Source: Halostagnicola sp. A-GB9-2 (GTDB taxonomy: Archaea > Halobacteriota > Halobacteria > Halobacteriales > Natrialbaceae). Taken from it: 64,000 nucleotides of DNA. Under the pieces are notes generated by a model. That model did no database searches, was not told where the DNA came from, and saw nothing but the letters and a program-made list of their open reading frames with translations. Positions 17,825 through 39,708 of this stretch are shown here, piece by piece. The stretch covers positions 62,001 to 126,000 of the forward strand of contig NZ_JASJOC010000003.1 in the NCBI RefSeq assembly GCF_030068615.1. The letters run 5' to 3'. The translations under genes were made by a program, and so were the position numbers. The stretch's first letter is position 1; every line of letters starts with the position of its first letter.

Positions 17825-18823
17825 ATGTTCGAACGAATCACAGACGAAGAAGAGCGCGGTCAGGTGGGAATCGGTACACTCATCGTGTTCATCGCGATGG
17901 TACTTGTCGCAGCGATTGCGGCAGGGGTTCTTATCAACACTGCGGGTCTTCTCCAGTCGCAGGCAGAGGCAACGGGTCAAGAAAGTACAGCGCAGGTTTC
18001 GAATGTCGTCCAGATAGACTCGGCGACGGGACACGTCGCACCTGCTTCGGACATCGTCTCCGAAACGTATGACGGGGTCGACGTTAGTTTCGCAGGAGCC
18101 ACTGAAAATGACGATCTTCAGGGTGAAGATATATATGTAACCATCAATGGTGCGGAAGATTCCAGTGGAGAGGCTATCGAGGATGAAACTGTTACCCTCG
18201 ATGCCTCGGCTGACGGATCCTTAGACGGCATCTCTATTGATAACGTTACGACTATTGATATTGAAGTCCCTGACAGTGTTACTAATGTCGGTGGCGCAAC
18301 AGCATCTCTCGACGTGGACATTCAGGATGAAAGTACCTTCACCATCGAGATTGAGGATAACGATGCCAACGACGACATCGAACTTGTCGCAGGTACCAAC
18401 GTTGAAGAGTTCGAAGACGAAAACGGTCTCCTCGAGGCAGATAGCGAACACGTCGTCTACGAGGCCTCGATGATGGTCTCGCTCGGCCCGGGTTCGGATC
18501 CGGTTGACCTGAGCGCGGCGACGTTCGAGTACGTCAACTCACACACCGAGCGCGGTACCGCCGAGGAGCTTGAAGACCTCGACCTCCTCGAAATCGGTGG
18601 CGAGGAACAAGTCTACGGTGAGGACGACGACTTCGGTGCGATCCTCGAGTCCGACAACCAGATTGCGATCGACATCGCTCTCGCCGGAACCGATGACCAG
18701 TTCTCGCCCATCATGTCCGGCGGCTCGGCTGAGTTCCTGATCACGACGGCTGACGGTGCACAGACCGTCGAACTGCTGATGGCGCCGTCGACGCTGACGG
18801 AGTCCTCTGCAGTCACGCTCTAA
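17825..18823 (+). CDS. arlA1: Archaellin (first of three large paralogues)
   Basis: 332 residues, the structural subunit of the archaellum filament. The class III signal [11 protein letters not shown] is cut before Gln, and the hydrophobic assembly helix [20 protein letters not shown] follows. Residues 1 to about 63 and about 214 to 332 are almost identical to the next two genes. Residues about 64-213 (acidic, with an N-V-T sequon) are unique and surface-exposed by position. The C-terminal part has [20 protein letters not shown] and [19 protein letters not shown]. The gene has its own four-repeat promoter, a leader of about 100 nt and a hairpin/T-run downstream. Confidence 0.95.
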
Positions 18824-18868
18824 GGTCGCTTCTCTCTTTCATAGCATCACTTCCTAATGAAGGTTTAA

Positions 18869-18900
18869 ATTATATGTCTTCATTAGACATATAATGCTTT
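18869..18900 (+). terminator. Perfect AT-rich hairpin after first archaellin gene
   Basis: ATTATATGTCT (18869-18879) and AGACATATAAT (18885-18895) are perfect complements around a five-base loop. A CTTTTTAG tract follows directly. It is a plausible transcript end or mRNA 3-prime stabiliser, 45 nt after the stop codon. Confidence 0.55.
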
Positions 18901-18968
18901 TTAGTACGATATATTTTAGAGAAAACACTACACAGCTCTAAACCGGCATTTTCGGATTTAACTGGATC

Positions 18969-19013
18969 GGCAAGTACCTTTATATAGTGTCGAAATGGCG
19001 AGTAGACTTAATA
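18969..19013 (+). promoter_or_regulatory. Two-site promoter of the second archaellin gene
   Basis: GGCAAGTA begins at 18969 and runs into a TTTATATAG TATA box; GGCGAGTAGACTTAATA begins at 18997, 28 bp later. The pair aligns base for base with the last two sites of the first gene and with the pair at 20214/20242. Initiation about 26 bp after the first TATA box would give a leader of about 100 nt. Confidence 0.65.
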
Positions 19014-19105
19014 CAGGTCCGTCAGAATCACTTGACACGTACCGGTAGTTACCAGCAAAAGTACAGTATGGCTTGCGGTAACGCCGGGCGCAAACACAGA
19101 TAATA

Positions 19106-20068
19106 ATGTTCGAACGAATCACAGACGAAGAAGAGCGCGGTCAGGTCGGAATTGGGACACTCATCGTGTTCATCGCGATGGTACTTGTCGCAGCGATTGC
19201 GGCAGGGGTTCTGATCAACACTGCGGGTCTTCTCCAGTCACAAGCACAGGCAACAGGTGAAGAGAGTACGGCACAGGTGTCGAACGTTGTCCAAATCGAT
19301 TCGGCAACGGGACAGGTTGAAGAAATCGAAACTTACGACGCCTATGAAGATGTGGACGTGACATTTAGTGACGCCCAAACTACGATTACGGAGGCCGAGG
19401 TTGAGATAGATGGTGAAACGTTCACTATTGTTGATCTTGACGGAGCCACTACAGATTCCATATCAACTGACATCACTAATGGATCCGAGGTGACTGTCAC
19501 TGTCACTGATACAGATGATGGTGATGGGACCACTTATACCCACGGTGAGGAATCTGACGCATTCGAGATTGGCATTGTTGACGAAGGCGATGTTGAACTC
19601 GTAATTGAGGACACTCAAGGCAACCAAATTCCGGAACTTAGCGCCGATAGTGCTGGCGTCGAAGCATACGATGACAGCTACACTGAATCTGAGCATATGG
19701 TTCACGAGGCTTCGATGATGGTCTCGCTCGGCCCGGGTTCGGATCCGGTTGACATGAGCGCGGCGACGTTCGAGTACGTCAACTCCCACACCGAGCGCGG
19801 TACCGCCGAGGAGCTCGACGACCTCTACCTCGCCGAAATCGGTGGCGAGGAACAAGTCTACGGTGAGGACAACGACTTCGCCGCGATTCTCGAGTCCGAC
19901 AACCAGATCGAGATCAACATTAATCTTGCAGGCGACGAGGACGACTTCTCACCGATGCAATCCGGTGGCTCCGCCGAGTTCCTGATTACGACGGCTGACG
20001 GTGCACAGACCGTCGAACTGCTGATGGCACCGTCGACGCTGACGGAGTCCTCTGCAGTCACGCTCTAA
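19106..20068 (+). CDS. arlA2: Archaellin (second large paralogue)
   Basis: 320 residues. The N-terminal class III signal and helix are the same as arlA1, as are the last 110 residues. The central region (about 67-205) is different: Asp/Thr/Val-rich beta strands, with an N-G-S sequon in [10 protein letters not shown]. The core is visibly AT-richer and uses rarer codons than its flanks, which suggests an exchanged cassette. It is flanked by its own promoter and a hairpin-type end, so it can be expressed apart from its neighbours. Confidence 0.95.
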
Positions 20069-20113
20069 GGCCGCTTCTCTCTTTCATAGCATCACTACCT
20101 AATGAAGATCTAA

Positions 20114-20147
20114 ATTATATGTCTTCCATAGATACATAACATTTTTT
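20114..20147 (+). terminator. Degenerate copy of the archaellin terminator hairpin
   Basis: ATTATATGTCT (20114-20124) is retained, but the partner arm (AGATACATAAC, 20130-20140) carries mismatches relative to the first copy. It is followed by ATTTTTTAG. The position relative to the stop codon is the same as at 18869. Confidence 0.4.
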
Positions 20148-20213
20148 AGTGCGATGGGTTTTGTAGAGTACACCATACAGCCGTCTAACCGGTAATTTCG
20201 TATTTAACGGGAC

Positions 20214-20258
20214 AGCAAGTAACTTTATATAGTGTCGAAATGGCGAGTAGACTTAATA
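20214..20258 (+). promoter_or_regulatory. Two-site promoter of the third archaellin gene
   Basis: AGCAAGTAACTTTATATAG begins at 20214 and GGCGAGTAGACTTAATA at 20242, a 28-bp step. The first base of the upstream site differs (A for G); otherwise it is the same arrangement as for the second gene. Confidence 0.65.
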
Positions 20259-20353
20259 CGGATCCGTTAGAATTGACTGACACGTTCCGGTAGTTACCAG
20301 CGGAAGTGCAGTGCAACTCACGGTAATGTCGGGCGCAAATACACAAACAAACA

Positions 20354-21337
20354 ATGTTCGAACGAATCACAGACGACGAAGAGCGCGGTCAGGTGGGAAT
20401 CGGTACACTCATCGTGTTCATCGCGATGGTGCTTGTCGCGGCGATTGCGGCAGGTGTACTGATTAACACCGCTGGTCTGCTGCAGTCGCAGGCAGAGGCA
20501 ACGGGTCAAGAAAGTACAGCGCAGGTCTCGAATGTCGTCCAGATAGACTCGGCGACGGGACAGGTAGAAGAGGTCCAGTTGGAGGGCGACTTGAGTGATG
20601 TCGATGTCGTCTTCGAGGACAATATCGAAGCAGCCGACGGTGAGAATATCGAAGAGTTGGACTTCACTATCGAACTACAGGATAGTGACGATAATGCTGT
20701 GGAAACCATCGATATTGGAGCTAGCGAGCACCTCGACACTGAGACAGATCTCTTCGAGAGTCAAGATCTGTCCAGTGAGGACTGGACTGTTTACGTCCAA
20801 GACGATACTAATTCTGCGAGCGGTGAGACGACTGAAATCACTGCAGAAGATGTTGAAGATGGCGAAGTTGTGGTCGACATCGATGCGTTGCAGGATGGCA
20901 CTACCACATCTGATTTCGCCGACAACCCAGACGTCTCCATCGCTTCCAACGCTGGAACCGAACACATGGTCCAGCATGCTTCGATGATGGTCTCGCTCGG
21001 CCCGGGTTCGGATCCGGTTGACCTGAGCGCGGCGACGTTCGAATACGTCAACTCTCACACCGAACGCGGTACCGCCGAGGAACTCGGGGACCTCGAGATA
21101 CAGGAACTCGACGGTGAGCAACGTATCCTCAGCGAGGACAACGACTTCGGCGCGATCCTCGAGTCCGACAACCACCTCGAGATCAACATTAACCTCAACG
21201 GCGACGAAGACGACTTCTCGCCAATCCAGTCCGGCGGTTCGGCTCAGTTCCTGATCACGACGGCTGACGGTGCACAGACCGTCGAACTGCTGATGGCACC
21301 GTCGACGCTGACCCAGGAGTCCGCAGTCTCGCTGTAA
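20354..21337 (+). CDS. arlA3: Archaellin (third large paralogue)
   Basis: 327 residues with the conserved ends of the family. The private core (about 66-212) is rich in Asp/Glu, for example [20 protein letters not shown]. The C-terminus reads [11 protein letters not shown] instead of [11 protein letters not shown]. Its stop is only 28 bp before the ATG of the fourth, short archaellin, and no terminator hairpin intervenes. These two are therefore likely cotranscribed, unlike the first two genes. Confidence 0.95.
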
Positions 21338-21365
21338 ACAACCACACGTTCAGTTTCATTATTTG

Positions 21366-21920
21366 ATGTTCAAGACGGCCTCTGACGAAGATAGACGCGC
21401 ACAAGTAGGCATTGGAACACTCATCATGTTCGTAGCGATGGTGCTCATCGCCGTCGTCGCGGCGGGTGTTCTCGTGAACACTGCTGGCGTCCTTCAGTCA
21501 CAGGCCGAAGCGACCGGGCAGGAGAGTACGGCGGAGGTCTCGAACACCCTCGAGGTGTACACCTCGGTCGGGACCCTCGACGAAAACGGACACATCGAGA
21601 CAGTCGATATGACGGTCAGTTTAGGCCCCGGCTCCAACCCCATCGACCTCGGGAATATCGTCATCGACTATCTCGGGCCGAACGACCACGCCTACGTCAA
21701 AGGCGAGCACGTCGCCGTCGACGGCTCCGAGGGCACGGTGCTCGAGGACGGCTCCGACCGCGGGACGATCACGCTCGAGCTCGAGGAGAAAGCCCAACCG
21801 CTCGAGCCGGGCGACGGTGCGGCGATTACGATCATCACCAACGACGGAGCCCAGATCAGCCAGGAACTCATCGTGCCGACCACCCTCGACGGCGAAGCAG
21901 GCGAGAAGATCCGCCTCTGA
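21366..21920 (+). CDS. arlA4: Short divergent archaellin lacking the variable domain
   Basis: 184 residues from the ATG at 21366 (a TTG at 21363 is also in frame). The signal is FKTASDEDRRA before [21 protein letters not shown], so the residue before the cut is Ala rather than Gly. After the assembly helix it passes almost directly from the EVSNTLEVYTSVG segment into VDMTVSLGPGSNPIDLGNIV, omitting the 130-150 residue core of the other three. It is likely a minor or base-proximal filament subunit (inference). Confidence 0.9.
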   Translation: MFKTASDEDRRAQVGIGTLIMFVAMVLIAVVAAGVLVNTAGVLQSQAEATGQESTAEVSNTLEVYTSVGTLDENGHIETVDMTVSLGPGSNPIDLGNIVIDYLGPNDHAYVKGEHVAVDGSEGTVLEDGSDRGTITLELEEKAQPLEPGDGAAITIITNDGAQISQELIVPTTLDGEAGEKIRL

Positions 21921-21969
21921 GCGCCCGCCTCGACCGCTGCGTTTGGATTTTGCGGCCTCCCCGTCCCTC

Positions 21970-22014
21970 CTCGAGTATTCATTTGTCCTCCCCCTCGAGT
22001 ATTCATTTGTCCTC
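21970..22014. repeat. 21-bp direct repeat, two copies 24 bp apart
   Basis: CTCGAGTATTCATTTGTCC plus two more bases occurs at 21970-21990 and again at 21994-22014, separated by CCC, just after the last archaellin gene. No palindrome or known site is evident. Confidence 0.7.
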
Positions 22015-22241
22015 TTCGAGTACCCCACTCGGTGAGCGCGCGACCACCTCGAGATTCGCGCCTGTCTCACCGGCAGAACTATTTCTTGAAAGACATTTCT
22101 TGTGAAGACTCAACCCACGAACTAGCAATAAGTTTCATAGTGGTATCCTCGAAACCCCGGAACGGGGTCAGGGAGCGACCGATTACGGATGTGAGAGGCA
22201 CCAAAAATCGACTCCTGCAGCGCCCCGAACTGATATCTACC

Positions 22242-22266
22242 AAAAAGGCCATCCCCCGGCCTTTTT
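22242..22266. terminator. Strong bidirectional hairpin with A/T runs
   Basis: AAAAAGGCC (22242-22250) and GGCCTTTTT (22258-22266) pair perfectly across ATCCCCC. With GC-rich inner stem and terminal T-run it looks like an intrinsic-type terminator for either strand, about 320 nt after arlA4. The rest of 21921-22484 shows no supportable gene. Confidence 0.6.
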
Positions 22267-22484
22267 CCGACACAACTATCACTCCTTGCTATCGGACTGT
22301 CGCTCTCTTACCACCGGCTGTCGCCCGCTTACCGGGTGACTATCAACACTCCTCGCGGCGACGTTACTCGAACGACACTAACGACCGTTCTCGAGTCGCA
22401 CCGTTCCCCGTCCTCGTACGCGTTGGGGTGGCCGATAGTTCGCGGTAGTCGCCAGTCGGTCTCGAGAACCAGGGCTGTTGTCCG

Positions 22485-22862
22485 TTACCCGTTGGTTTCG
22501 TTCCCGTCCTCGTCATCGTCCGTTTCGTTCCCGTCCTCGTCGTCGTCCGTTTCGTTCCCATTCTCCGGATCCTCTTCCTCTTCATCCGGATCCTCTTCCT
22601 CTTCATCCGGATCCTCTTCCTCTTCAGCCGGGTCCTCTTCCTCCTCAGCCGGGTCCTCTTCCTCCTCAGCCGGGTCCTCCTCTGCTGGATCTTCCTCCTC
22701 CTCAGCCGGATCCTCTTCCTCCGGCGGTTCCTCGTCTTCGGGAGCCGCTGGATCCTCTTCTTCGGGGTCCTCTCCGTCGTCGTTGCAACCGGCCAGCGCA
22801 ACCGCGAGACCGGATCCGGCGAGTACGGTCAACCGTCGTCGTGTAAGCGTGGGTTCTGTCAT
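22485..22862 (-). CDS. Tat lipoprotein with acidic EEEEDPA repeats
   Basis: 125 residues. A Tat-type signal (LTRRRLTVLAGSGLAVALAGC) ends in a lipobox cysteine. All the rest is low-complexity: repeats of EEEEDPA, EEEEDPD and NGNETDDDED. The acidic tail begins about eight residues after the Cys, and no folded domain is possible. It is the only gene between the archaellins and arlF and reads against them. It may form an acidic surface brush (inference). Confidence 0.75.
   Translation of the reverse strand: MTEPTLTRRRLTVLAGSGLAVALAGCNDDGEDPEEEDPAAPEDEEPPEEEDPAEEEEDPAEEDPAEEEEDPAEEEEDPAEEEEDPDEEEEDPDEEEEDPENGNETDDDEDGNETDDDEDGNETNG
22530..22720. repeat. Tandem trinucleotide-rich repeats inside the acidic lipoprotein gene
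   Basis: On the plus strand, CATCCGGATCCTCTTCCTCTT-like 21-bp units and CAGCCGGGTCCTCTTCCTCCT-like units alternate, with an 18-bp shorter unit near 22680. A separate pair of 24-bp units near the C-terminus encodes ETDDDEDGN. All are multiples of three, so copy-number changes would stay in frame. Confidence 0.75.
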
Positions 22863-23372
22863 GCTGCACTCGAGTCTGAGTCTGTGAGGGGGAATAATAC
22901 GGTTTGATCGTCCAAGCCGTTAACTCAACCTACCTGTAGTTCAGTCGAATTAAGGACTCTGAATCGCTGATAAGTCGCCCGCACTACTGGAAATAGGCTC
23001 GTATTCACCTTCCGATCGAAACCCCTAGACGGAGTCGTGCTGAAAGGGGCATTCTCCCCGAAAAAATGTTAAGTTGAAGTTTATCGACTACCTGCCCTCC
23101 AGAATCCTCTCACTACGCATTCGTTCGCCAACTAGAGGTACCCCGTCAACAGACTTTTAATTGGTACCATTTCACAATAAACGTTCTCGAGCGGCGAATG
23201 CTCGAGTTCGCTCGATCCGCGAGCACACCGCGGCTCCGGTCGAGCGGAAATTACCCCCTGTAGACTCTCGTTTCCGAGACGCCGTCCCTGCTTTTGTGCC
23301 TGATTGTCCTGACACTTGCTATCATTCGATGGCCAGAGCGTTTTTGCACGTGCATTGTGTCTCGGAGAACTA
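22863..23372. other. 510-bp intergenic region upstream of arlF
   Basis: It holds the divergent promoter of the lipoprotein gene (left) and the arlF leader (right). A TATA-like CTTTTAATTGG at about 23154-23164 would give an arlF leader of about 190 nt. I see no gene here: the frames present have the composition of shadows. Confidence 0.4.
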
Positions 23373-23861
23373 ATGGGGTTTAGCACGAGCGCTGCGGTTG
23401 CGGTTATGCTCATCGGCTTTCTCCTAGCGGCGGGTGTTCTGTTTCCGGCGGTGTTTGCGGCCGGTAGCGATACCGGCAGTGCGTTCTCGGCCCAGGCGGA
23501 TCAAACTCGAGACCAGATAAACACCGCTATCGACATCTCGACGTTCTCCGAAATCGACGGCGAACCGACGGTCGTCGCGAGCAACGACGGAACGACGACC
23601 ATCGACGTGATGAAAGTCGACGTCTTGGTCAACGGAGTGTACGTTCACTACGATCACTATACGACCGCCGTCGTGACCGAAACGGCCGGCGGAGAGACCG
23701 AATCGAACGGCGAAACCGATATCTGGCATCCGGGCTCGGACCTCGAGATCGTACTCGATTTCGACGACGTCTCCGCTATCGACGAGGAAGACGTAGAGCG
23801 TGTCAAACTCGTCACCGAGTACGGAATCACGGACAGCGCCGAATACGAGGGGAGTGAGTAG
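23373..23861 (+). CDS. arlF: Archaellum stator protein ArlF
   Basis: About 162 residues from the ATG at 23373. The N-terminal membrane helix is MGFSTSAAVAVMLIGFLLAA. The exterior beta-sandwich domain reads VASNDGTTTIDVMKVDVLVNG, then HPGSDLEIVLDFDD. ArlF binds the S-layer and, with ArlG, anchors the motor as a pseudo-stator outside the membrane. The gene abuts arlG directly (stop then ATG with no gap), so the two are cotranscribed. It is the first core motor gene after the archaellins. Confidence 0.92.
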   Translation: MGFSTSAAVAVMLIGFLLAAGVLFPAVFAAGSDTGSAFSAQADQTRDQINTAIDISTFSEIDGEPTVVASNDGTTTIDVMKVDVLVNGVYVHYDHYTTAVVTETAGGETESNGETDIWHPGSDLEIVLDFDDVSAIDEEDVERVKLVTEYGITDSAEYEGSE

Positions 23862-24368
23862 ATGGCAAGCGTTTCAGCGACACATCTTATTCTGTTTATC
23901 GCGAGTATCGTGGTCGCGGCGGGTATCGCGGGCACGCTCGTCATCGAGGTCGACAACTTGAGCGGGGCGATCGAAACGCAGGGCTCGGCGACGTCCACGG
24001 AGATCGAAACGGAGATCAATATCGTTAGCGACGCCGGCCAACCGGATTCGATCTACGACGCCGGCGACGAAGAAACCAACGAGCGGATAACCCTCTACGT
24101 CAAGAACATCGGCTCCGAGCACCTCGAGGCCCATCATTCGGCCGTCGATATCCTGGTCAACGGCCAGTACGTCTCGAGCGATCACACGGAACTCGAGCAC
24201 CTCTACGCCGATAGTAGCTCCTGGCAGACGGGTGACGTGGTCGAACTGACGATCGATCTCGAGGAGGCAAACGGCGATATCGTGATCGATGGCGACACGA
24301 GCACGACGGTGATCGTCAACGACAACGAGGATAGCATCGACTTCCACGTCGAGAACGGCGGAGAATAA
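23862..24368 (+). CDS. arlG: Archaellum stator protein ArlG
   Basis: 168 residues. The N-terminal helix LILFIASIVVAAGIAGTLVI is followed by an exported beta domain (ERITLYVKNIGSEHLEAHHS, then GQYVSSDHTEL). It pairs with ArlF to link the motor to the envelope. The ATG directly follows the arlF stop. The 21-bp gap to the first arlCE suggests a shared operon arlF-arlG-arlCE-arlJ. Confidence 0.92.
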   Translation: MASVSATHLILFIASIVVAAGIAGTLVIEVDNLSGAIETQGSATSTEIETEINIVSDAGQPDSIYDAGDEETNERITLYVKNIGSEHLEAHHSAVDILVNGQYVSSDHTELEHLYADSSSWQTGDVVELTIDLEEANGDIVIDGDTSTTVIVNDNEDSIDFHVENGGE

Positions 24369-24389: not shown

Positions 24390-25481
24390 ATGGTACTGGA
24401 CTTCAGCGGACTCGGTGGCGATGACGAATCGGACGACGTGAGCGGCGGCGACGACCTGATGGGTGGTGCCGACGACGGGCTGATGGGCGACGAGACGATG
24501 TTCGCCGACGACGAGGACGACGATTCGGAGATGGAAATTACCTATCAGCTCGACGAAATCGAGAAGGAGGTCGAATCCCTCGAGAACAAAGTCGAGACCG
24601 TTCGCGGCGAGAACGAGCAGATCAGTGACTCCATCACGACCGTCGAGAAGAACGTCGACAAACTCGTCGACCTCTATGAAATCGTCACCGAGGGCGTCAA
24701 CCCCTTCGCCGCCGACCAGGAGATCGGCAACGCCTTCGACACGGAAGAGGGCGGGATGTTCGGCGGCGATGACGACGACCTCGGCGGTGAGATCGACGAG
24801 GAGATCGTCGACGCGGAGGCGAACGATTTCCTCGACGACGAGATCGAAGACGAGGACGAAGACGACGGGTTCGGCGACGAGTTCGACGAGGACGGCTCGC
24901 TCGAGGACGATGAGTTTACAGACGACGGACTCGAGGACGATGCGTTCTCCGACACGCTCGGTGACGACGAGGATGCGTCGGGAGACGACTCGGAACTCGA
25001 CGACGAAATCGAGACATCCGCGCTCGAGGACGATGTCTCTGAAGAGACACAACCCGATCCGTCCGCCCAGTCTGCAGTCAACGGGATCGATATCGGCGAA
25101 AACGGCCAGGTTGGCGATCCGCCGTATCTCGCCGTCCAGCCCTCGAGAAGCGACGCGGAGCTGGTGACAATCGAGTGGCTCACCTTCCTCGTCGAGACGG
25201 TTGGCGTTCCCGGTGCGGCCCAGACGATCGCGTATTACGAGTCGGTCGGCTGGATCTCGCCGCCGGTCGAGACGTACTTACAATCGATGCTCAACGGCTT
25301 CGGCGACGACTCACAGCCGGCGACGGAGATCGCTTCGGACCCCGAACCGAAGTCGGTCCTCGAGACCGACGAACACAAGCAAAGCTTGCAGTACATCGCC
25401 TGGATCGCGACGCCGGAGCAGGCACCGGAGCTGCTGACCGATGGCTCCGCCCAGGAGGCGATAACCCAGCCGGAGCAGTAG
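24390..25481 (+). CDS. arlCE: Archaellum switch protein ArlCE (first copy)
   Basis: 363 residues: a Gly/Asp/Met-rich start (residues 1-45) and the ArlC-type coiled-coil part at about 50-108 (YQLDEIEKEVESLENKVETV, ending VTEGVNPF). A long Asp/Glu linker follows to about 235, then the ArlD/E domain at about 244-350 (VTIEWLTFLVETVGVPGAAQ, LQSMLNGFG, LQYIAWIATPEQ). These proteins form the cytosolic ring below ArlI/ArlH that receives CheF and CheY-P. A second, much larger copy lies at 28905-31946. Confidence 0.92.
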   Translation: MVLDFSGLGGDDESDDVSGGDDLMGGADDGLMGDETMFADDEDDDSEMEITYQLDEIEKEVESLENKVETVRGENEQISDSITTVEKNVDKLVDLYEIVTEGVNPFAADQEIGNAFDTEEGGMFGGDDDDLGGEIDEEIVDAEANDFLDDEIEDEDEDDGFGDEFDEDGSLEDDEFTDDGLEDDAFSDTLGDDEDASGDDSELDDEIETSALEDDVSEETQPDPSAQSAVNGIDIGENGQVGDPPYLAVQPSRSDAELVTIEWLTFLVETVGVPGAAQTIAYYESVGWISPPVETYLQSMLNGFGDDSQPATEIASDPEPKSVLETDEHKQSLQYIAWIATPEQAPELLTDGSAQEAITQPEQ

Positions 25482-28904: not shown

Positions 28905-31900
28905 ATGGTCATGCTATCTATAATCGGAGATATGTTCAGCGGCGGTGACGACGACGGCTCCGGAGGCGGTGATTCCAGTTTGATGGGAGACGATAATATC
29001 TCCGGGAGTACGAGCGATGGCGGCTTGATGCCCGAATCAAGCACGGATGGCGGTGGCGGCATGGGAGGCGGTGATGACCTCCTCGGCGGTGGTGGCGGCG
29101 GCGGCGATATGATGGGTGGCGGTGACGATATGATGGGCGGTGGCGACGATATGATGGGCGGCGATGACATGATGGGCGGTGGTGGCGAGATGTCCTTCGA
29201 CGAGATGGACGAGGGCGGCGGTGACGGCGATGGCGCGTCGAACGAAATCGAAGCTCGCGTCGAGGAGATGGAAAACGACGTTGGGTCGCTTTCCTCGACG
29301 GTGAACACGGTCCAGAGCGAGAACGAGAAAATCAGCGAATCGCTCGAGGATATCGAAGAGAACATTCGGAAACTGCTGGAAGTCTACGAGATGGTTACAC
29401 AGGGGGTAAACCCCTTCGTCGAAGGAGATTCGCTGAGCGAGTCGTTCGACGATGGCAGCGGCGGCGCACAAGGAACCGGCAATTTCGGAGATAGTAGCAT
29501 TTTCGACGGCGATGACGAGGAGGAAGCGGCAGTCGACGATTCTGTCTCCGATGCAGACGCGGAAGACTTCCTCGACGAGGACGTCATCGAGGACGATACG
29601 GACGACGGGTTCGGTGACGAGTTCGACGACGCTGACGACGAGTTCGAGGACGATACCGGCTCGGACGACGATGTCGGGGGCGGCGACCTCTCGTTCGACG
29701 ACCTCAAGGACGAATACGAGTCGGGCGCTGCGGAGTGGGACGGCGAGGGAGATGAGATGTCCGACGACCTCGAGACTGGCGAAACTGGGACGGAGATGGA
29801 TACCGAGTCGGCGGAGACGACCACCGCGGGTGACGTCTTCGACTCGGATGTCACCCAGCCAGAGACGGCCGGATCCGCGGCCAACGATCACATCGAAAAC
29901 GCCTGGAACGACGGCGGCAGACCGTACCTCGAGTCGCTCCCCTCCGAATACGATACGGAGTTTCTCGTCATGGAGTGGCTGGACTATCTGGTCGAGGAGG
30001 TCGGCCTCGAGGGAGCAGCCCAGACGGTTCGGTTCTACGGCTCGATTCACTGGGTCGACGACCCCGTCGAAGAGTACCTGCAGACGATGCTCAACGGCTT
30101 CGGTGGCGGCCCCGACGTCGATGACCCGCAGCCGAACTCCTCGCTCGGTATCGACCACCGCCGGAGTCTGTGGTGGATCAGTCAGGTCGCATCGCCGAAG
30201 AAAAAACAGCGGACGTTCGGCGAGTGGGTCCGGGAAGAGGGGATTCCGACGAGCCGGCTGGAGACCGAACTGGATGTCGACGCGATCGAAGAGCGGGCGA
30301 CGGCCGCCGAAACGGAGTCCGAATTCGACCGCGATGATGCGTTCGAATCGGCGACCGAGAGCGAGGTGCCAGAAGAGCCGCTCGAGGCGGACTCCTCTGC
30401 CGCCGTTTCAGCGGCGACGGACGCCGGTGACGACCGGTCCGGTGGTCCGAGCACCGGTACGGAGTTTACCTTTGTGAGTTATATCGGCGTCGAGAACGAC
30501 GACGGCTCGCTGGCACCGGCTTCGAACGGGTGGGTTATCGAGGGCGAATCGGAGCGCGAGCAACCCGAAGCGGACCAGTCCTCTACTCACGACTCGAGTG
30601 AACAAGTGACTGCGAGCGAAGATGACTCGAGCGGTGGCGAACCCCTCTCGACTGCTGTCGACGCTGACGCCGCCGAAGAGACGATGGCTACCGGTTCGAC
30701 TGACTCCGGTGAAGAGACGGAAACCCCACTCGGGAGCATAGAAGAGACTTCTGCCCGCGGAGACATCGGGACTGTCGAAGAGGTTTTAGAGACAGGTGAA
30801 GCCGAACCCGAGATAGCGTCCCCTGAGACGGAGACCCCAGCCGCAACCGAAACTGGTGTCGTTGGGGAAGCTCTATCTGCGGCTGAAACTGAGGCTGTTG
30901 AAGACGAGGTTGTTGGAGACGAGGTTGTTGGAGACGAGGTTGTTGGAGACGAGGTTGTTGAAGGCGAAGCTGTTGAAGGCGAAGCTGTTGAGGACGAGGT
31001 TGTTGGAGACGAGATCGTCGAAGAGCTGGCCGTCGACAACGGTGCAACTGACGCGATTCCAGCTACGGATAACTCGCCGTCTCCGGTTGCAGGTGACTCG
31101 CCGTCTTCGGACGACTCGTCGGCCCCGGTTGTAGACGAACCGGCGGCGACAGTTTCGGACGATTCACCGCCCGCGGATGACCGGGATGAGACGGCGTCCG
31201 AGACGGCAGAACAGGAACTCGAGTGGCAGGAATCCGACGTCGACGAGGCTGGGTCGACCGGACTCGAGCACATCGAGCCCGAATCGGTCGAGGCCGAATC
31301 AACTGATGCCGAATCGGGCCAGACTGAATCAGCCAAAGCCGAATCAACTGATGCCGAATCGGTCGAGGCCGACCTGACCGAATTCGACCCGGCCGATACC
31401 GAACCGGCGGCGGATGTCGTCGAATCGACCGACTCCGAATCGGTGGAACAGGCGTTCGACTGGGAGGAATCGGACGAATCGGATGCTTCCCAAGCCGGCG
31501 GTAACGATGATTCGGACGCTTCGCAAGCGAACGATTCCGACGATGAGATCGACTGGCTCGACGATTCCGACGATGACCCGTCGGACGGCGACGACGATCC
31601 CGGCGATCTCTGGAGCGACTCGGAGTCCGGAGGAAACGGTGCGCTCTGGGACGAGTCCGGAACGGAGTCGTCCCCTCAGGACGACGACGATGGCTTCTGG
31701 AACCCGGCAGATGAGTCGGGAGACGGGCCTGAGGCGTCCGGACCCGACGGCGAACCACGCGCTCGAAACACGGCCGATGTCGCTCCACAGGGCGTGGACA
31801 CTGACGGCGGTCAGGCGCTGTGGGAGACAGCGGGCGATTCGTCGGCTTCCGCCGACGGCTCCTGGGAGACAAACCAAGACGGGATGTCCGAGAGCCACGA

Positions 31901-31946
31901 CGACGTATCGGTTTCCGAAGAATCGCCGGACGCGGAGGAACAATGA
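28905..31946 (+). CDS. arlCDE: Giant ArlCDE-type switch protein with repetitive acidic tail
   Basis: 1013 residues, against about 350-500 for usual haloarchaeal ArlCE/ArlD proteins. Residues 1-100 hold Gly/Asp/Met repeats (GGDDMMGG units). The ArlC coiled-coil part is at about 112-172 (NEIEARVEEMENDVGSLSST, then VTQGVNPF), and the ArlD/E domain at about 340-430 (LVMEWLDYLVEEVGLEGAAQ, LQTMLNGFGG, SLWWISQVASPKKKQ). After that come about 580 residues of acidic low complexity, including EVVGD pentad repeats near 665-705 and AESTDAES-type repeats near 785-830. A short VSYIGVENDDGSLAPASNGW segment near 522-545 looks folded. Its stop overlaps the arlH start (ATGA). Confidence 0.9.
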   Translation: MVMLSIIGDMFSGGDDDGSGGGDSSLMGDDNISGSTSDGGLMPESSTDGGGGMGGGDDLLGGGGGGGDMMGGGDDMMGGGDDMMGGDDMMGGGGEMSFDEMDEGGGDGDGASNEIEARVEEMENDVGSLSSTVNTVQSENEKISESLEDIEENIRKLLEVYEMVTQGVNPFVEGDSLSESFDDGSGGAQGTGNFGDSSIFDGDDEEEAAVDDSVSDADAEDFLDEDVIEDDTDDGFGDEFDDADDEFEDDTGSDDDVGGGDLSFDDLKDEYESGAAEWDGEGDEMSDDLETGETGTEMDTESAETTTAGDVFDSDVTQPETAGSAANDHIENAWNDGGRPYLESLPSEYDTEFLVMEWLDYLVEEVGLEGAAQTVRFYGSIHWVDDPVEEYLQTMLNGFGGGPDVDDPQPNSSLGIDHRRSLWWISQVASPKKKQRTFGEWVREEGIPTSRLETELDVDAIEERATAAETESEFDRDDAFESATESEVPEEPLEADSSAAVSAATDAGDDRSGGPSTGTEFTFVSYIGVENDDGSLAPASNGWVIEGESEREQPEADQSSTHDSSEQVTASEDDSSGGEPLSTAVDADAAEETMATGSTDSGEETETPLGSIEETSARGDIGTVEEVLETGEAEPEIASPETETPAATETGVVGEALSAAETEAVEDEVVGDEVVGDEVVGDEVVEGEAVEGEAVEDEVVGDEIVEELAVDNGATDAIPATDNSPSPVAGDSPSSDDSSAPVVDEPAATVSDDSPPADDRDETASETAEQELEWQESDVDEAGSTGLEHIEPESVEAESTDAESGQTESAKAESTDAESVEADLTEFDPADTEPAADVVESTDSESVEQAFDWEESDESDASQAGGNDDSDASQANDSDDEIDWLDDSDDDPSDGDDDPGDLWSDSESGGNGALWDESGTESSPQDDDDGFWNPADESGDGPEASGPDGEPRARNTADVAPQGVDTDGGQALWETAGDSSASADGSWETNQDGMSESHDDVSVSEESPDAEEQ
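29106..29191 (+). repeat. Tandem GATATGATGGG-type repeats in the giant ArlCDE gene
   Basis: Four units of 18-24 bp built on GAYATGATGGGYGG encode D-D-M-M-G-G-G. All are multiples of three. Confidence 0.75.
30903..31015 (+). repeat. 15-bp tandem repeats GAGGTTGTTGGAGAC
   Basis: Three perfect copies in a row from about 30907, then variant units (GAAGGCGAAGCTGTT twice) and another GAGGTTGTTGGAGAC, encoding D-E-V-V-G and G-E-A-V-E pentads. The base identity between units points to recent slippage or recombination. Confidence 0.8.
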
Positions 31947-32712: not shown

Positions 32713-34386
32713 ATGACAGAGCTGGGAACACCAAAGCCGTCGGACGAGCTTCGAGAACTTGCCGCGCGTCGACCGCACCTCCGTGAACATTTAAAGAAGT
32801 TCAGACAGATCACGGGCGAATTTCCGGTCCTGATTGACGAGCCATCCGCAGAGTACGAGACGGATCATCCGAACGTCCTGTACCCGGTCGGTGGCCCGAT
32901 TTTCAGCCACATTTACGGCGACGTCGGCGCGAAGATGCAGTACTTCGCCGTCGAGCCGACGCTTTCAGAAGAGGAACAAGAGGTCTTTCAGGCGGTCAAA
33001 GACTCCCTGTTGCGCCGGAGTACGAGCAAGACCGCACCCGAAAATGACGCCGAGTACGACGACCAGATCGAGGAGTTGCTCCAGGAGGCGACACATATCA
33101 AGGGCGACGACCTGAACAATTTCCTCGACCGACTCAAGGTCCAGTTTCATCCGGGCATCCAGGAGATTCCACAGGAGACTTACGAGAACATTAGGTACCG
33201 GTTGAACCGCGATATCGTCGGCCTCGGCCCGCTCGAACCGGTCATGCGCGACCCGGAGAACGAGGACATTCACGTGATCGGCCCCAACGAGTGTTATGTC
33301 GATCACGGCACCTACGGCATGGTCGAGACGACCGTCGACTTCGGGACTCAAGAGGAGTTCGATAGCTGGCTGAGCAATATGGGCGAACGGATCGGGAACC
33401 CGATGACGGACGCCGAGCCGATTATCGACTCGACGCTTCCGGACGGCTCCCGTCTGAACGTGATTTACAGCGACGATGTGAGTGTGAAAGGGCCCAGCCT
33501 CACGATCCGTCAGGGCGACGAGGTTCCGCTGTCGGTCACCCAGATTACGAACTGGGGAACGCTCTCGCCCCAGCTCGCGGCGTATCTCTGGTTGTGTCTC
33601 GAGAACGAGCGAACGGTGTTCGTCGTCGGCGAGACGGCGTCGGGGAAGACGACGACGCTGAACAGCATCATGTCGTTCATTCCGCGCGACTCGAAGATTT
33701 ACACCGCGGAGGACACCGCCGAGGTGCTTCCCCCTCACGACACCTGGCAACAGCTACTGACTCGAGAGAGTCGGAGCGAGGACAGTGCGGACGTCGACAT
33801 GTTCAATCTGGTCGAGGCGGCGCTTCGTTCCCGTCCGGAGTACATCGTCGTGGGCGAGGTTCGTGGTGAGGAGGGTCGGATGGCGTTCCAGGCGGCCCAG
33901 ACCGGCCACCCGGTTATGCTTACCTTCCACGCGAGCGATATCGTTTCGATGATTCAGCGATTTACCGGGGACCCGATCAACGTCCCCGAGACGTTCATGG
34001 ACAACGCCGACGTGGCACTGTTCCAGAACCGGGTGAAACAGGGCGACGACGTCCTGCGTCGGGTCACGAGCGTTCAGGAGATCGAGGGCTACTCCGACCA
34101 GATGGACGGCGTCGTCACCCGGCAGGTGTTCTACTGGGACCCCGTCGAGGACGAGATCGTCTTCCAGGGGATGAACAACTCCTACGTCCTCGAAGAACAG
34201 ATTGCGACGCTGCTCGGGTACGCGGACACACGAGACATCTACGACGATCTGGAGTTCCGGGCAGATATCATCGAACGGATGATTCAGGAAAACATCCTCG
34301 AGTATCACGAGGTAAACTCCACGATCGATCAGTTCCAGCGTGACGGCGTCGAGGGGCTTCCGTTCCATATCACCCGTCCGGATTGA
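32713..34386 (+). CDS. arlI: Archaellum motor ATPase ArlI
   Basis: 557 residues of the type II/IV secretion ATPase superfamily. The N-terminal domain covers about 1-290. The Walker A motif GETASGKTTT starts near residue 306, the Asp/His box region (YTAEDTAEVLPPHDTWQQLL) follows, and Walker B lies in the EYIVVGEVRGEEGRMAFQA segment. ArlI powers both assembly of the filament and its rotation. The final segment GVEGLPFHITRPD ends the operon arlCDE-arlH-arlI. A 196-bp gap with a motility-type promoter site separates it from the transducer gene. Confidence 0.95.
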   Translation: MTELGTPKPSDELRELAARRPHLREHLKKFRQITGEFPVLIDEPSAEYETDHPNVLYPVGGPIFSHIYGDVGAKMQYFAVEPTLSEEEQEVFQAVKDSLLRRSTSKTAPENDAEYDDQIEELLQEATHIKGDDLNNFLDRLKVQFHPGIQEIPQETYENIRYRLNRDIVGLGPLEPVMRDPENEDIHVIGPNECYVDHGTYGMVETTVDFGTQEEFDSWLSNMGERIGNPMTDAEPIIDSTLPDGSRLNVIYSDDVSVKGPSLTIRQGDEVPLSVTQITNWGTLSPQLAAYLWLCLENERTVFVVGETASGKTTTLNSIMSFIPRDSKIYTAEDTAEVLPPHDTWQQLLTRESRSEDSADVDMFNLVEAALRSRPEYIVVGEVRGEEGRMAFQAAQTGHPVMLTFHASDIVSMIQRFTGDPINVPETFMDNADVALFQNRVKQGDDVLRRVTSVQEIEGYSDQMDGVVTRQVFYWDPVEDEIVFQGMNNSYVLEEQIATLLGYADTRDIYDDLEFRADIIERMIQENILEYHEVNSTIDQFQRDGVEGLPFHITRPD

Positions 34387-34479
34387 CTGAACGCATCAGG
34401 AAAACTCGTCGTGCTCGCCGACCGAATTGGCTGTGTCCATCCGGCCGGCTCGAGCGGCCACGGAAACCGTCTCTGTTAC

Positions 34480-34582: not shown

Positions 34583-36340
34583 ATGAATTATGGGTCTTTA
34601 GGGGCAGAACGAATTCGGAGCCAGTATAGTGCGAAACTCGCTGTGGTCTTCGCTGGTATACTCGTCACGACAATTATAGCCGGCTTGATCTTTCGCCTTC
34701 ATATCGTTTCGGGCCCGACCGAAACCGTCGTCGAGCGCTCGATTGCATCGTTGGCCGGCCTGATGATGGTGACGTTCATCAACCTCGGCGTCGCCTGGAT
34801 CGTCGTCGGCGGGAACGTCGGGATGGAGTTGCGCCAACTCGAGTCCGGGGCGGAACGGATCGGCAACGGCGACTTCGATGTCGATCTGGAAACCGAGCGA
34901 ACCGACGAGATCGGCGCGCTGTACATCTCGCTCGCCGATATGCGCGATTCCCTCGAGACGACTCTCGAGGAAGTGACGGAGAAAGAACGACTGGCACAGG
35001 AGGCAAAAGAAGACGCCAGAGGTCGCTCGGAAGAACTCGAGGTACAACAGGAAAAGCTTCGGGAGGCCCAGCAGGAGGCCAAACGACGCAATCAGGAGCT
35101 GATCGACGAGGCACAGCGGTTCTCCGAGGTGATGGAGGCGTGTGCCGACGGAGATCTGAACAACCGACTGGAACCACGGATCGAAAACGAAGCGATCGAA
35201 GCGATCGCCGACTCGTTTAACGACATGCTCGAGGAGATCACTGGCGTCCTCGAGAACGTACAGACGATGAGTTCGACCGTCGACGACATGGCGGTCGATC
35301 TCGAGGCCTCGAGCGAACAGATTCGAGACGCGAGCGGTGACGTTTCCGAATCGATGCAAGAGATCTCCGAGGGGGCAACGACACAGAGCGAGCAACTCGA
35401 TATCGCGAGTTCGAACGTCAGCGAGCTGTCGGCGGGGAGCGAAGAGGTCGCAGCCGCGACGAGCGACATCGCCGAAACGTCCGAAGACGTGACCGCGAGT
35501 GCGAGCGAGGGACAGGAACACGCCCAACAGGTCGAAGCCAACATCGAGCGGCTGGTCGAGATGACCGATTCGGTCGTCGAGACCGTCGAGGCGCTCACCA
35601 ACGAAGCTGAACAGATCGGCGAGATTACGGAACTCATCGAAGACGTTGCCGATCAGACGAATCTGCTGGCGCTGAACGCGAATATCGAGGCCTCGAGCGC
35701 GGGCCAGAGCGGCGAGCGGTTTTCGGTCGTCGCGAACGAAATCAAGCAGTTGGCCGAGGAAACGATGGACGGCGTCGACGATATCGATCGGAGACTTAGC
35801 GCGATTCAGGAACAGGCGGAGATGACCGCCGAGGAGGTCCACTCGGTCGACGGCGAATTGAAACAGACCTCGCAACTGGTTCGACAGTTGAACGAACAGC
35901 TGACCGCGGTCAACGAGGGAATCGAGCAGGTGGATATGCGAATTCAGGAAATCGATTCGACGGCCGACGATCAGGCCGAAGCCGCACAGGAACTCTCCTC
36001 GGTACTCGCGGACGTGACGAACGTGTCGGCCGAGACGAGCAACCAATCGGAGAAAGTCGCCGCGGCGTCCGAAGAAACGACGGCGACGATCGAACAGGTC
36101 TCGAGCTCGGCGGATTCACTCGGCAATCAGGCGGAGAACCTGGCCTCGATGATGAGCGAGTTCGACCTCGGAACCGGATCCAAGTCGGCTTCCGGACGGG
36201 CCAAGCTAGAAGCGGACGGTGGCTGGACGGATGATGCGATGCGGGAAGACGATGGTGTGCGAGGGGGCGAGGGGGCACGAAGCGACGACGAACGGGCAAC
36301 GGACGACGTTGTTCGAACTGACGGGGAGGTGGGCCGATGA
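34583..36340 (+). CDS. HtrII-like methyl-accepting transducer
   Basis: 585 residues. TM1 is at about 18-37 and TM2 at about 52-76, with only a short loop outside, so there is no ligand-binding domain, as in sensory-rhodopsin transducers. TM2 contains FINLGVAWIVVGG, aligning with GINLGL of HtrII; Asn67 matches the transducer Asn that bonds to SRII. Two HAMP units follow (NGDFDVDLETERTDEIGALY; FSEVMEACADGDLNNRLEP), then the coiled-coil signalling domain with QTNLLALNANIEASSAG. The usual EAARAG at the tip is EASSAG (Glu369, Ser372). The C-terminus is a charged tail. The stop overlaps the ATG of the rhodopsin homologue. Confidence 0.92.
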   Translation: MNYGSLGAERIRSQYSAKLAVVFAGILVTTIIAGLIFRLHIVSGPTETVVERSIASLAGLMMVTFINLGVAWIVVGGNVGMELRQLESGAERIGNGDFDVDLETERTDEIGALYISLADMRDSLETTLEEVTEKERLAQEAKEDARGRSEELEVQQEKLREAQQEAKRRNQELIDEAQRFSEVMEACADGDLNNRLEPRIENEAIEAIADSFNDMLEEITGVLENVQTMSSTVDDMAVDLEASSEQIRDASGDVSESMQEISEGATTQSEQLDIASSNVSELSAGSEEVAAATSDIAETSEDVTASASEGQEHAQQVEANIERLVEMTDSVVETVEALTNEAEQIGEITELIEDVADQTNLLALNANIEASSAGQSGERFSVVANEIKQLAEETMDGVDDIDRRLSAIQEQAEMTAEEVHSVDGELKQTSQLVRQLNEQLTAVNEGIEQVDMRIQEIDSTADDQAEAAQELSSVLADVTNVSAETSNQSEKVAAASEETTATIEQVSSSADSLGNQAENLASMMSEFDLGTGSKSASGRAKLEADGGWTDDAMREDDGVRGGEGARSDDERATDDVVRTDGEVGR

Positions 36341-37074
36341 TCAGTGAACTCGTCCTGTACAGATGGTTCGGCTTGCTGTTGATAGTCGCTTCTCTCGCGA
36401 TCATCGGGGCATCGCAGTGGCTTTCCTCGGATATTCGTAAGTACGGCTACCTTCCGGGACTCGCCGCGGCGGGAATGGGTATCTCGTACGTGCTCATGTC
36501 GGTCGAGTTCCTGATGATCGAGGTCGAACCCGGCGTCGAAACGTCGGGTGCCCGTTTCATCGGATACACGATCCTGTGGCTCGCGTTCGCCTACGTGTTG
36601 AAACAATCAGCCGGTGTCGGTCTTCGAACGACTGGCGCCCTGGTCGTCGCCCTGTTGTGGGCGAACTGGAGTACGCTCGGCGGCTGGCTGACCGACGGGC
36701 TTTCCCAGCTTGTTATCATGGCACTGATGGTGGCCATGATCGGGGTCATGGTCTATCTGCTCACGAAGCCGTTTAGACGGCGGGCCGGTCAGCGAACTGA
36801 CGAACGACAGCTGTTGTATGTGAAAATAATGTACCTCACTATTCTCACGTGGGTTGCGATGCTCCTCTCGGGTGTGCTGGCCGAGTACAACCTCGAGGTG
36901 ACCGACACGTTCGTCGGCTCGAGCATCGCGATTTATGCCGACGTCGTGTTGATACTCGGGTTTACCGTCATCCTCTTTGGCGGCCGCGAAGCGCTTTCCC
37001 ATATCGACGAAGCGGATCCGGTGCGGACGGAAGAGAACCGAGTAGACGGTGTTCGGGATCCGGCAGGTTCCTGA
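36337..37074 (+). CDS. Microbial-rhodopsin homologue lacking the retinal lysine
   Basis: 245 residues with seven predicted helices. By eye it aligns with SRII over its length: MGISYVLMSV (helix B), ARFIGYTILWLAFAYVL (helix C; Arg73 kept), VAMIGVMVYLLTKPF into LYVKIMYLTILTW (E/F; Trp172 kept), and IAIYADVVLILGFTVILF (helix G). Tyr200 and Asp202 match SRII Tyr199 and Asp201, but the Schiff-base lysine is Ile206. The helix C counterion Asp is Gly76, and the retinal-pocket Tyr-Pro of helix F is Met175-Leu176. No other lysine lies within a helix core. It cannot hold retinal by the usual bond. It is coupled (ATGA overlap) to the HtrII-like gene, as sopII is to htrII. The ligand or stimulus is unknown. 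Confidence 0.85.
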   Translation: MISELVLYRWFGLLLIVASLAIIGASQWLSSDIRKYGYLPGLAAAGMGISYVLMSVEFLMIEVEPGVETSGARFIGYTILWLAFAYVLKQSAGVGLRTTGALVVALLWANWSTLGGWLTDGLSQLVIMALMVAMIGVMVYLLTKPFRRRAGQRTDERQLLYVKIMYLTILTWVAMLLSGVLAEYNLEVTDTFVGSSIAIYADVVLILGFTVILFGGREALSHIDEADPVRTEENRVDGVRDPAGS

Positions 37075-37213: not shown

Positions 37214-37570
37214 ATGGACGTATTAATTACGGACGATTCCGGATTCATGCGGGATCTTCTCAGGGAAATTCTCGAGGAGGAACACAACATCGTGGGGGAA
37301 GCCGAAAACGGCGTCGAAGCCGTCGAATTGTATCAACAGGAAGAGCCGGATATCGCTTTCATGGATATCGTCATGCCGATCAAAGACGGGATCGAGGCGA
37401 CCGACGAGATCACCGATCTCGATCCTGATGCGACCATCGTCATGTGTACGAGCGTCGAGCAGGCCGAGCAGATGAAAGACTCGATCAAAGCCGGTGCGGA
37501 CGGCTACATCACGAAACCGTTCCAGAAGGAAAGCGTGCTCGAGGAAGTCAACAGCATCACCGCCGGGTAA
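37214..37570 (+). CDS. cheY: Chemotaxis response regulator CheY
   Basis: A 118-residue single receiver domain. The acidic pocket is Asp7/Asp8, the phospho-acceptor Asp51 (FMDIVMP), the switch Thr79-Ser80, and the conserved Lys101 (YITKPF) before a short final helix. CheY-P passes through CheF to the archaellum switch. It has its own AT-rich promoter (TTTTATTAAGTAAAC at about 37180-37194) and a leader of only about 10 nt or none. cheC follows six bases after the stop. Confidence 0.94.
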   Translation: MDVLITDDSGFMRDLLREILEEEHNIVGEAENGVEAVELYQQEEPDIAFMDIVMPIKDGIEATDEITDLDPDATIVMCTSVEQAEQMKDSIKAGADGYITKPFQKESVLEEVNSITAG

Positions 37571-38826: not shown

Positions 38827-39708
38827 TTAAGCGTTGACGTCTTCGATGCGTTGACTCACGACGATTCGACCCTGGGGTGTCAGCGAGAGCCCCTCGCCGT
38901 TCTCGACGACCAGTTGTTTGTTTCGAACCGAGTTCAAGACGTTCGTCACGTAGGCCGGATCGCCGTCTAACATGTTCGTAAAGTCGATGTCGCCACCCGT
39001 GGCGTGGACCCCGACCAACACGCGTTTTTCCGGATTGGTCAGTTCGATCTCTTCGACCTCTTCGCGAACCTCGTCGTACTCGAGCCTGAAGTATCGTGCC
39101 AGCAGATTCACGTACTGGCTCTTTGCGGGCGCGATCTGCGAGGTTTGGGTCATACCGGACTCCTGATCGGTGTGTTTGACGACCAGGGTCACTCGGTCGT
39201 CGCTGTCGCCGATCTGGTTCGTTCGGTCGATGTTCATCACCGTCGCGACGTCGATACTGAAGCCGCTGTTTTTCGTCCTGACTTCGACCTGCCTGTTTTT
39301 GATGTGAAGGGTTCCGAGAACGACGCTCGAGTCCGTTAGTCGGCCGCCGACCCGCGCCGGGTGTTTGACGGCGACTTTCCGGCCGTCGAGCAGGCAGCGA
39401 AACAGGATCCCGACAAATTTTTCAACCTTTTCGTCCGAGCTTTCGATGACCGCGCTTTGAGTGCCCTCATCCGTCCGGTAACCGATCGTTGCCGTGTCTC
39501 CGAAGAACCGTTTGACGTGCTGGGGAACCGTTCCCACGTTCACGTCGATAACTTTGGACAACGGGATCGTTTCCTTCGTTTTCCCCGTCGCAAGCACGAC
39601 CCGTTTTTCGGTCATAATGATCCGCCCCTCGACCGGTTTGCCCGCGTTCTCACCACCGTTGCTCAAGATAAAGCGACCAGTGATATCCGCGACGACATCC
39701 TCGTCCAT
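38827..39708 (-). CDS. cheF2: Archaeal taxis protein CheF (second copy)
   Basis: 293 residues of the CheF (DUF439) family: MDEDVVADITGRFILSNGGE start, PH-like beta segment (GRIIMTEKRVVLATGKTKET) and a C-terminal part ending LTPQGRIVVSQRIEDVNA that is winged-helix-like. It shares the VKHPA/GG..DSS segment with CheF1 at 9990-10853. It converges on cheC. Two different CheF proteins interacting with CheY, CheD and the archaellum are known in Halobacterium salinarum. Confidence 0.88.
   Translation of the reverse strand: MDEDVVADITGRFILSNGGENAGKPVEGRIIMTEKRVVLATGKTKETIPLSKVIDVNVGTVPQHVKRFFGDTATIGYRTDEGTQSAVIESSDEKVEKFVGILFRCLLDGRKVAVKHPARVGGRLTDSSVVLGTLHIKNRQVEVRTKNSGFSIDVATVMNIDRTNQIGDSDDRVTLVVKHTDQESGMTQTSQIAPAKSQYVNLLARYFRLEYDEVREEVEEIELTNPEKRVLVGVHATGGDIDFTNMLDGDPAYVTNVLNSVRNKQLVVENGEGLSLTPQGRIVVSQRIEDVNA

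Follow-up and report, generated by a model that had tools for sequence, protein, structure and literature searches.

A divergent lysine-less opsin-related protein and its HtrII-type transducer in the archaellum locus of Halostagnicola sp. A-GB9-2: a likely retinal-independent taxis receptor

The window analysed here is a stretch of 64,000 nucleotides from Halostagnicola sp. A-GB9-2 (contig NZ_JASJOC010000003.1, positions 62,001 to 126,000). Two adjoining genes on its forward strand encode a 585-aa HtrII-type transducer (34583-36340, +) and a 245-aa lysine-less opsin-related protein, or ORP (36337-37074, +). The stop codon of the transducer and the start codon of the opsin gene overlap in the sequence ATGA (36337-36340, +), suggesting translational coupling. 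Archaellin genes, arlJ, arlCDE, arlH and arlI lie upstream of the pair, and cheY, a cheC-like gene and cheF lie downstream. The immediate upstream neighbour is arlI, the archaellum motor ATPase (32713-34389, +), named by gene order and paralogues; three of four congeners have a copy with 97% identity to it. The immediate downstream neighbour is cheY (37214-37570, +), and cheF, the archaeal chemotaxis-archaellum adaptor, lies further on (38827-39708, -; Pfam CheF-arch, 1.2e-69). Coordinates, reading frames, overlap and the position between arlI and cheY all agree with a preliminary description of this DNA made from the sequence alone.

The archaellum cluster itself contains two arlCDE-type fusions (FlaC_arch plus Arch_fla_DE) at 24390-25481 and 28905-31946, with arlJ and a DUF7500 gene between them. 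The second fusion is 1013 aa long and has long acidic repeats. Six ORFs with Arch_flagellin matches are found at 17825-24365, with an unmatched ORF among them (22336-22887).

In the congener G018, arlI (97% identical) is directly followed by cheY, representing an empty site, while in the window genome and in G019 the transducer-ORP cassette is located between these two genes. All three of these genomes share a conserved block just 5' of cheY, and the two with the cassette share another one upstream of the transducer. From these two blocks we infer that the cassette is probably transcribed from a promoter of its own. The locus comparison fits a gain of the cassette in one lineage and its loss from the other alike. 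In a further congener, G020, the archaellum locus is rearranged (L171, G020:C16:86444-104970): arlI lies ~9 kb from arlH/arlCDE, a piece of arlI 48 residues long is found downstream, and the locus gave no match to cheY. The ORP of G020 belongs to another lineage and occupies another site.

The ORP was compared with all PDB sequences using phmmer. Seven Natronomonas pharaonis SRII sequences were matched (best E 2.5e-6, residues 9-216), and the single further match was a weak one to the rhodopsin 6kfq (E 1.3). No match of the window ORP to Pfam PF01036 was observed even at E<=10. The AlphaFold2 model, calculated from an alignment of 56 natural relatives, has a pLDDT of 91.2 and displays seven helices and an extracellular BC hairpin. 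SRII and SRII/HtrII crystal structures were the top matches of this model in a Foldseek search of the PDB, with TM-scores of 0.8-0.9. Since there are 79 lysine-less relatives in 51 genomes of the same family and the model matches SRII first, the homology to opsins is not a chance resemblance. The preliminary description had read the gene as a seven-helix SRII homologue, and the rhodopsin fold obtained by structure prediction bears this out.

The residue at the position of the retinal-binding Lys205 of SRII is Ile206 (ATA, 36952-36954, +), and none of the 79 family members has a lysine there. The four lysines of the ORP (35, 88, 144 and 163) are all at helix ends, leaving the membrane core without one. 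A retinal lysine moved to another core position was ruled out by this reading of the sequence, and a lysine masked by misalignment was ruled out by helix G, which is gap-free across the 79 members. The alignment also revealed Gly76 for Asp75 of SRII, Tyr77 for Trp76, Met175-Leu176 for Tyr174-Pro175 and Leu205 for Thr204, with Arg73, Trp172, Tyr200 and Asp202 retained. The replacements of the lysine, Asp75 and Tyr-Pro and the retention of Arg73, Trp172 and Asp202 had been noted before by eye and are all confirmed. Arg73, Gly76 and Tyr77 lie in the RFxGY motif of helix C (36553-36567, +), and Asp202 (SRII Asp201; 36940-36942, +) forms with Arg73 a retained buried acid-Arg pair. Two tryptophans are new: Trp81 (SRII Thr80; 36577-36579, +), conserved in 50 of the 62 group-B-type ORPs defined below, and Trp117 (SRII Ala116; 36685-36687, +), conserved in 54. 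Gly at position 76 is common to 58 of the 62. The altered positions are mostly signatures of the family, not peculiar to the window gene. Collectively, the former retinal cavity is remodelled around Arg73-Asp202 by Trp178->Gly, Trp76->Tyr and Gly112->Thr together with Trp81 and Trp117, and the window ORP has Met at the positions of SRII Tyr174 and Phe127.

Relatives were searched for in 125 genomes of the same archaeal family. This search gave 80 loci in 52 genomes, one of which is a true SRII (L070). The 79 others, in 51 genomes, have Leu, Arg, Val, Phe, Ile or His at position 205. The absence of lysine that the preliminary description had singled out is thus constant, but the residue in its place varies and ~40% of the sampled ORPs have no adjacent transducer. 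More lysine-less members were found in other families of the class (L151-L155 and L157), and searches of plasmid and viral collections returned no relatives. The sole ortholog of the window ORP found in the 125 genomes is that of G019, which is about 74-78% identical. In a quick maximum-likelihood tree with long branches, the lysine-less proteins form a single clade of 63 rows beside the sensory rhodopsins (SH-aLRT 100). A 44-row subset (SH-aLRT 99) contains the window ORP, which together with that of G019 forms a long branch inside the Leu/Ile group. The tree carried no published group B sequence by name.

Opsins of this kind have been described previously. According to Becker et al. 2016 (PMC4915679), haloarchaeal ORPs number 48 in 28 of 80 genomes, and have Arg (group A) or Leu or another hydrophobic residue (group B) at the lysine position. 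Of the group B ORPs, 17 of 32 adjoin HAMP/MCP transducers; nine ORPs are near chemotaxis and archaellum genes, ORPs are transcribed, two that were heterologously expressed had no retinal-dependent absorbance, and taxis to a non-light stimulus was proposed. Since the class was described there, the window pair is an additional, divergent member of a known family, a group-B-type ORP with its transducer, and not a first. The preliminary description missed this family, for which essentially the same hypothesis has been in print since 2016. The pair shares with group B ORPs a hydrophobic residue at Lys205, sensory rhodopsins as nearest relatives, an adjacent HAMP/MCP transducer, an archaellum/chemotaxis neighbourhood, no requirement for retinal genes and the hypothesis of non-light taxis. 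What sets it apart is the long branch of the lineage shared with G019, which PF01036 fails to match, the Met at the Tyr174 and Phe127 positions, and a genome whose single ORP and single transducer of this kind lie between arlI and cheY. The fungal ORPs cited in PMC4915679 are likewise homologues of type 1 opsins that have no Schiff-base lysine, but according to that paper they lost it independently.

No match to the retinal synthase family PF15461 was found in the window genome, which is 99.97% complete, and a PF01036 search at E<=10 found no other opsin in it. Among the 125 genomes, PF15461 is present in 63, all of which have a lysine-bearing rhodopsin (Fisher p 3e-26). Here, a true rhodopsin was scored when the best PF01036 match was below about 1e-30, in agreement with a residue check on sampled loci. 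In contrast, ORPs are independent of PF15461 (p 0.37): the synthase is missing from 28 of the 51 ORP genomes, and 26 of these, including the window genome, have neither synthase nor true rhodopsin. PF15461 therefore tracks true rhodopsins and not ORPs, which is new here and extends the eight species considered in PMC4915679. These data bear on light sensing by a non-covalently bound or different chromophore (free retinal, carotenoid or other), with which the rhodopsin fold and the retained Trp172, Arg73 and Asp202 would be consistent. We consider this very unlikely, because the genome has no retinal synthase, the substitutions W178G, W76Y, F127M and Y174M remove residues that hold the ring and chain of retinal and, according to PMC4915679, the two expressed ORPs gave no retinal band.

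The two cassette genomes were used to estimate selection. The dN/dS values (NG86, window genome versus G019) are 0.24 for the ORP and 0.16 for the transducer, compared to 0.02-0.07 for arlH, arlI, cheY, cheC and cheF; the ORP and transducer thus evolve faster than the arl and che genes. The two ORPs have diverged by 26% in amino acids, yet none of 25 pocket positions differs, these being positions chosen from the retinal site of SRII and taken to line the pocket. The 15 BC-loop positions are also unchanged, and differences amount to 11% in helix F and 7% in helix G. The changes are concentrated in helices A and D-E, the loops and the C-terminus. A decaying relic of a sensory rhodopsin might be expected to lie, as this pair does, among the fastest-evolving genes of its locus, and a visibly broken ORP does occur, in genome G036. 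Even so, decay is extremely improbable: the frames are intact in two species, the family has 79 open members, and we reject this reading on the dN/dS and the conserved pocket. The unchanged pocket and BC loop and the nearly unchanged helices F and G fit a maintained receptor.

The transducer has two membrane helices placed by hydropathy (TM1 at residues ~14-44 and TM2 at ~53-79) with a short extracellular loop between them, followed by a HAMP domain (83-125) and an MCP signalling domain (316-481). HAMP (5.2e-12) and MCPsignal (3.8e-32) were the only Pfam domains detected, with no ligand-binding domain, and residues 1-130 match the HtrII of SRII/HtrII crystals (E 1.9e-19). The gene is therefore, as had been proposed, an HtrII-like transducer without a ligand-binding domain. 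With only two membrane helices and a short loop ahead of HAMP and MCP, it probably does not sense external signals by itself. The pair has in common with NpSRII-NpHtrII the fold, the transducer-opsin order with the ATGA overlap, the two-helix transducer with HAMP and MCP domains, Arg72, Asp201 and the Tyr199-Asn74 contact. It differs from NpSRII-NpHtrII in the absence of Lys205, Asp75, Thr204 and Tyr174-Pro175, in the remodelled retinal pocket, in an Asp-His pair in place of Thr189-Glu43 and in a genome without retinal synthesis.

The affinity of SRII for HtrII is set by two hydrogen-bond contacts, Tyr199-Asn74 and Thr189-Glu43/Ser62 (PMC3274258). On the receptor side, the window ORP has the invariant Tyr200 (SRII Tyr199; 36934-36936, +) and Asp190 (SRII Thr189; 36904-36906, +). 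On the transducer side, Asn67 in an INLG motif is at the position of NpHtrII Asn74 (34781-34783, +), and His40 is at that of NpHtrII Glu43 (34700-34702, +). Tyr200 is the predicted partner of Asn67, and Asp190 that of His40. In six of six true SRII pairs, Thr/Ser189 is accompanied by Glu/Asp43 of HtrII. Among 46 ORP pairs, Tyr199 is present in all and Asp/Asn189 in 41, and all 41 have His or Tyr at position 43 of the transducer. Covariation of the two sites inside the ORPs is weak, and the swap appears to be close to a single joint change at the ORP base. As one evolutionary change it supports matched docking, yet it does not amount to repeated evidence. The docking contacts are thus either kept or changed on both sides together, and at the level of residues docking of the ORP on the transducer is well supported. 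Asp189 of ORPs was already remarked upon in Becker et al. 2016 (PMC4915679); no mention of the transducer side of the swap was found in the text consulted, and relative to that text the matching change at position 43 is new here.

The swapped contact could itself be the sensor, with pH or ion activity acting on Asp190-His40 at the extracellular end of the interface. HtrII Glu43 is replaced by His/Tyr and SRII Thr189 by Asp in nearly all ORP pairs, the resulting pair is titratable and near the outside, and pH and salt vary in haloarchaeal habitats. We regard such an interface sensor as unlikely, as it leaves unexplained why 25 of 25 inner-cavity positions are unchanged and why Trp81 and Trp117 were acquired, and several paralogues per genome would be redundant.

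The distribution of transducers was examined across the 125 genomes. A group-B query was used to define short HtrII-like transducers (E < 1e-33), and ORPs with neither Lys nor Arg at 205 were counted as group-B-type, including one His205 genome (G113). Of the 28 genomes with group-B-type ORPs, 27 encode such a transducer, against 0 of the 97 others (p 1.5e-26). The one that lacks it, G082, is a draft with 85% completeness. In many genomes, and in most of those with more than one group-B-type ORP, several ORPs are accompanied by a single short transducer (up to 5 to 1), and ORPs without a neighbouring transducer still have Tyr199 in 33 of 33 cases and Asp189 in 27 of 33. The window genome has exactly one ORP and one short transducer of HtrII type; its other MCP matches span the TM2/HAMP or HAMP region only. 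This pattern suggests that several receptors may share one transducer. The near-perfect co-occurrence might also be expected if the ORP were a silent structural partner that only folds or clusters a transducer which, having no sensor domain, may need a 7TM partner, with sensing elsewhere (HAMP, the cytoplasmic domain or membrane state). This seems improbable, since the several diverged ORPs often found per transducer suggest different inputs and the pocket residues are under stronger constraint than the rest of the ORP. A tentative extension of receptor sharing, which we hold to be possible but not the likelier outcome, is that lysine-less opsins correspond in archaea to the 7TM chemoreceptors, as exchangeable receptors for ligands that plug onto a common two-helix MCP. 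Different ORPs could then share or compete for the same transducer, and the window pair, a cassette inserted between arlI and cheY, would be the simplest arrangement, with one receptor to one transducer.

Transducers of this type were also seen apart from an intact ORP. The ORP-type transducer of L174 (G036:C3:3402266-3408640) is intact, and after it comes a broken remnant of an ORP, reduced to helices F-G and with stops upstream; G036 has two other ORPs elsewhere in its genome. L175 (G079) and L176 (G080) have ORP-type transducers with no ORP within ~6 kb around, and both genomes have ORPs elsewhere.

Together, these comparisons make it likely that the pair is a group-B-type ORP and HtrII-type transducer acting as a retinal-independent, ligand-gated taxis receptor that probably guides swimming in response to a stimulus other than light. 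The ORP would dock on the two-helix transducer in the SRII-HtrII geometry, with Tyr200 against Asn67 and Asp190 against His40. The most likely stimulus would be a small molecule or an ion that enters the former retinal cavity, which in its remodelled form would be lined by Tyr77, Trp81, Thr113, Trp117, Trp172 and the Arg73-Asp202 pair. Its arrival may shift helices F and G and thereby move TM2 of the transducer, and HAMP and the MCP hairpin would relay this movement to CheA/CheW and on to CheY and CheF, with archaellum switching as the outcome. The preliminary description had proposed both a re-use of a rhodopsin-type complex beyond ordinary photosensing and an output to archaellum switching. 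The re-use is supported by the absence of another opsin and of a synthase, by docking contacts that are kept or matched and by published ORPs without retinal binding (PMC4915679), while the free-chromophore option it included is disfavoured because residues lining the retinal site are replaced. The output to the archaellum is suggested by the position between arlI and cheY and by the MCP domain.

Light is taken to be the only stimulus of microbial rhodopsins, whereas animal GPCRs serve many others as well. If the pair is a working non-light receptor, a rhodopsin fold would have been turned into a chemoreceptor with its old signalling partner kept, much as in GPCRs. The window genome, in which a single ORP is paired with a single HtrII-type transducer and neither another opsin nor a retinal synthase was found, and which has a congener with the same site empty, is a clean test bed for what ORPs sense.

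Another group of the same family retains more of the SRII residues. ORPs with Arg in place of Lys205 were found in 23 genomes (L065, L099, L056, L096 and 19 other loci). Like the published group A ORPs (PMC4915679), they are lysine-less and lie beside an MCP transducer, and they share the Asp189-His/Tyr43 swap with the window pair. They differ from it in Arg205 and in keeping Asp/Glu75, Tyr174 and mostly Thr204; Arg72, Asp201 and Tyr199 are also kept, as if the retinal anchor alone had changed. Their adjacent transducers are longer by ~225 extracellular residues, which lie between TM1 and TM2 and gave no Pfam match in the one transducer scanned. Finally, two deep ORP lineages (L059:4920-6257 and L154:4977-5825) retain Tyr174 and carry His where the retinal lysine would be.
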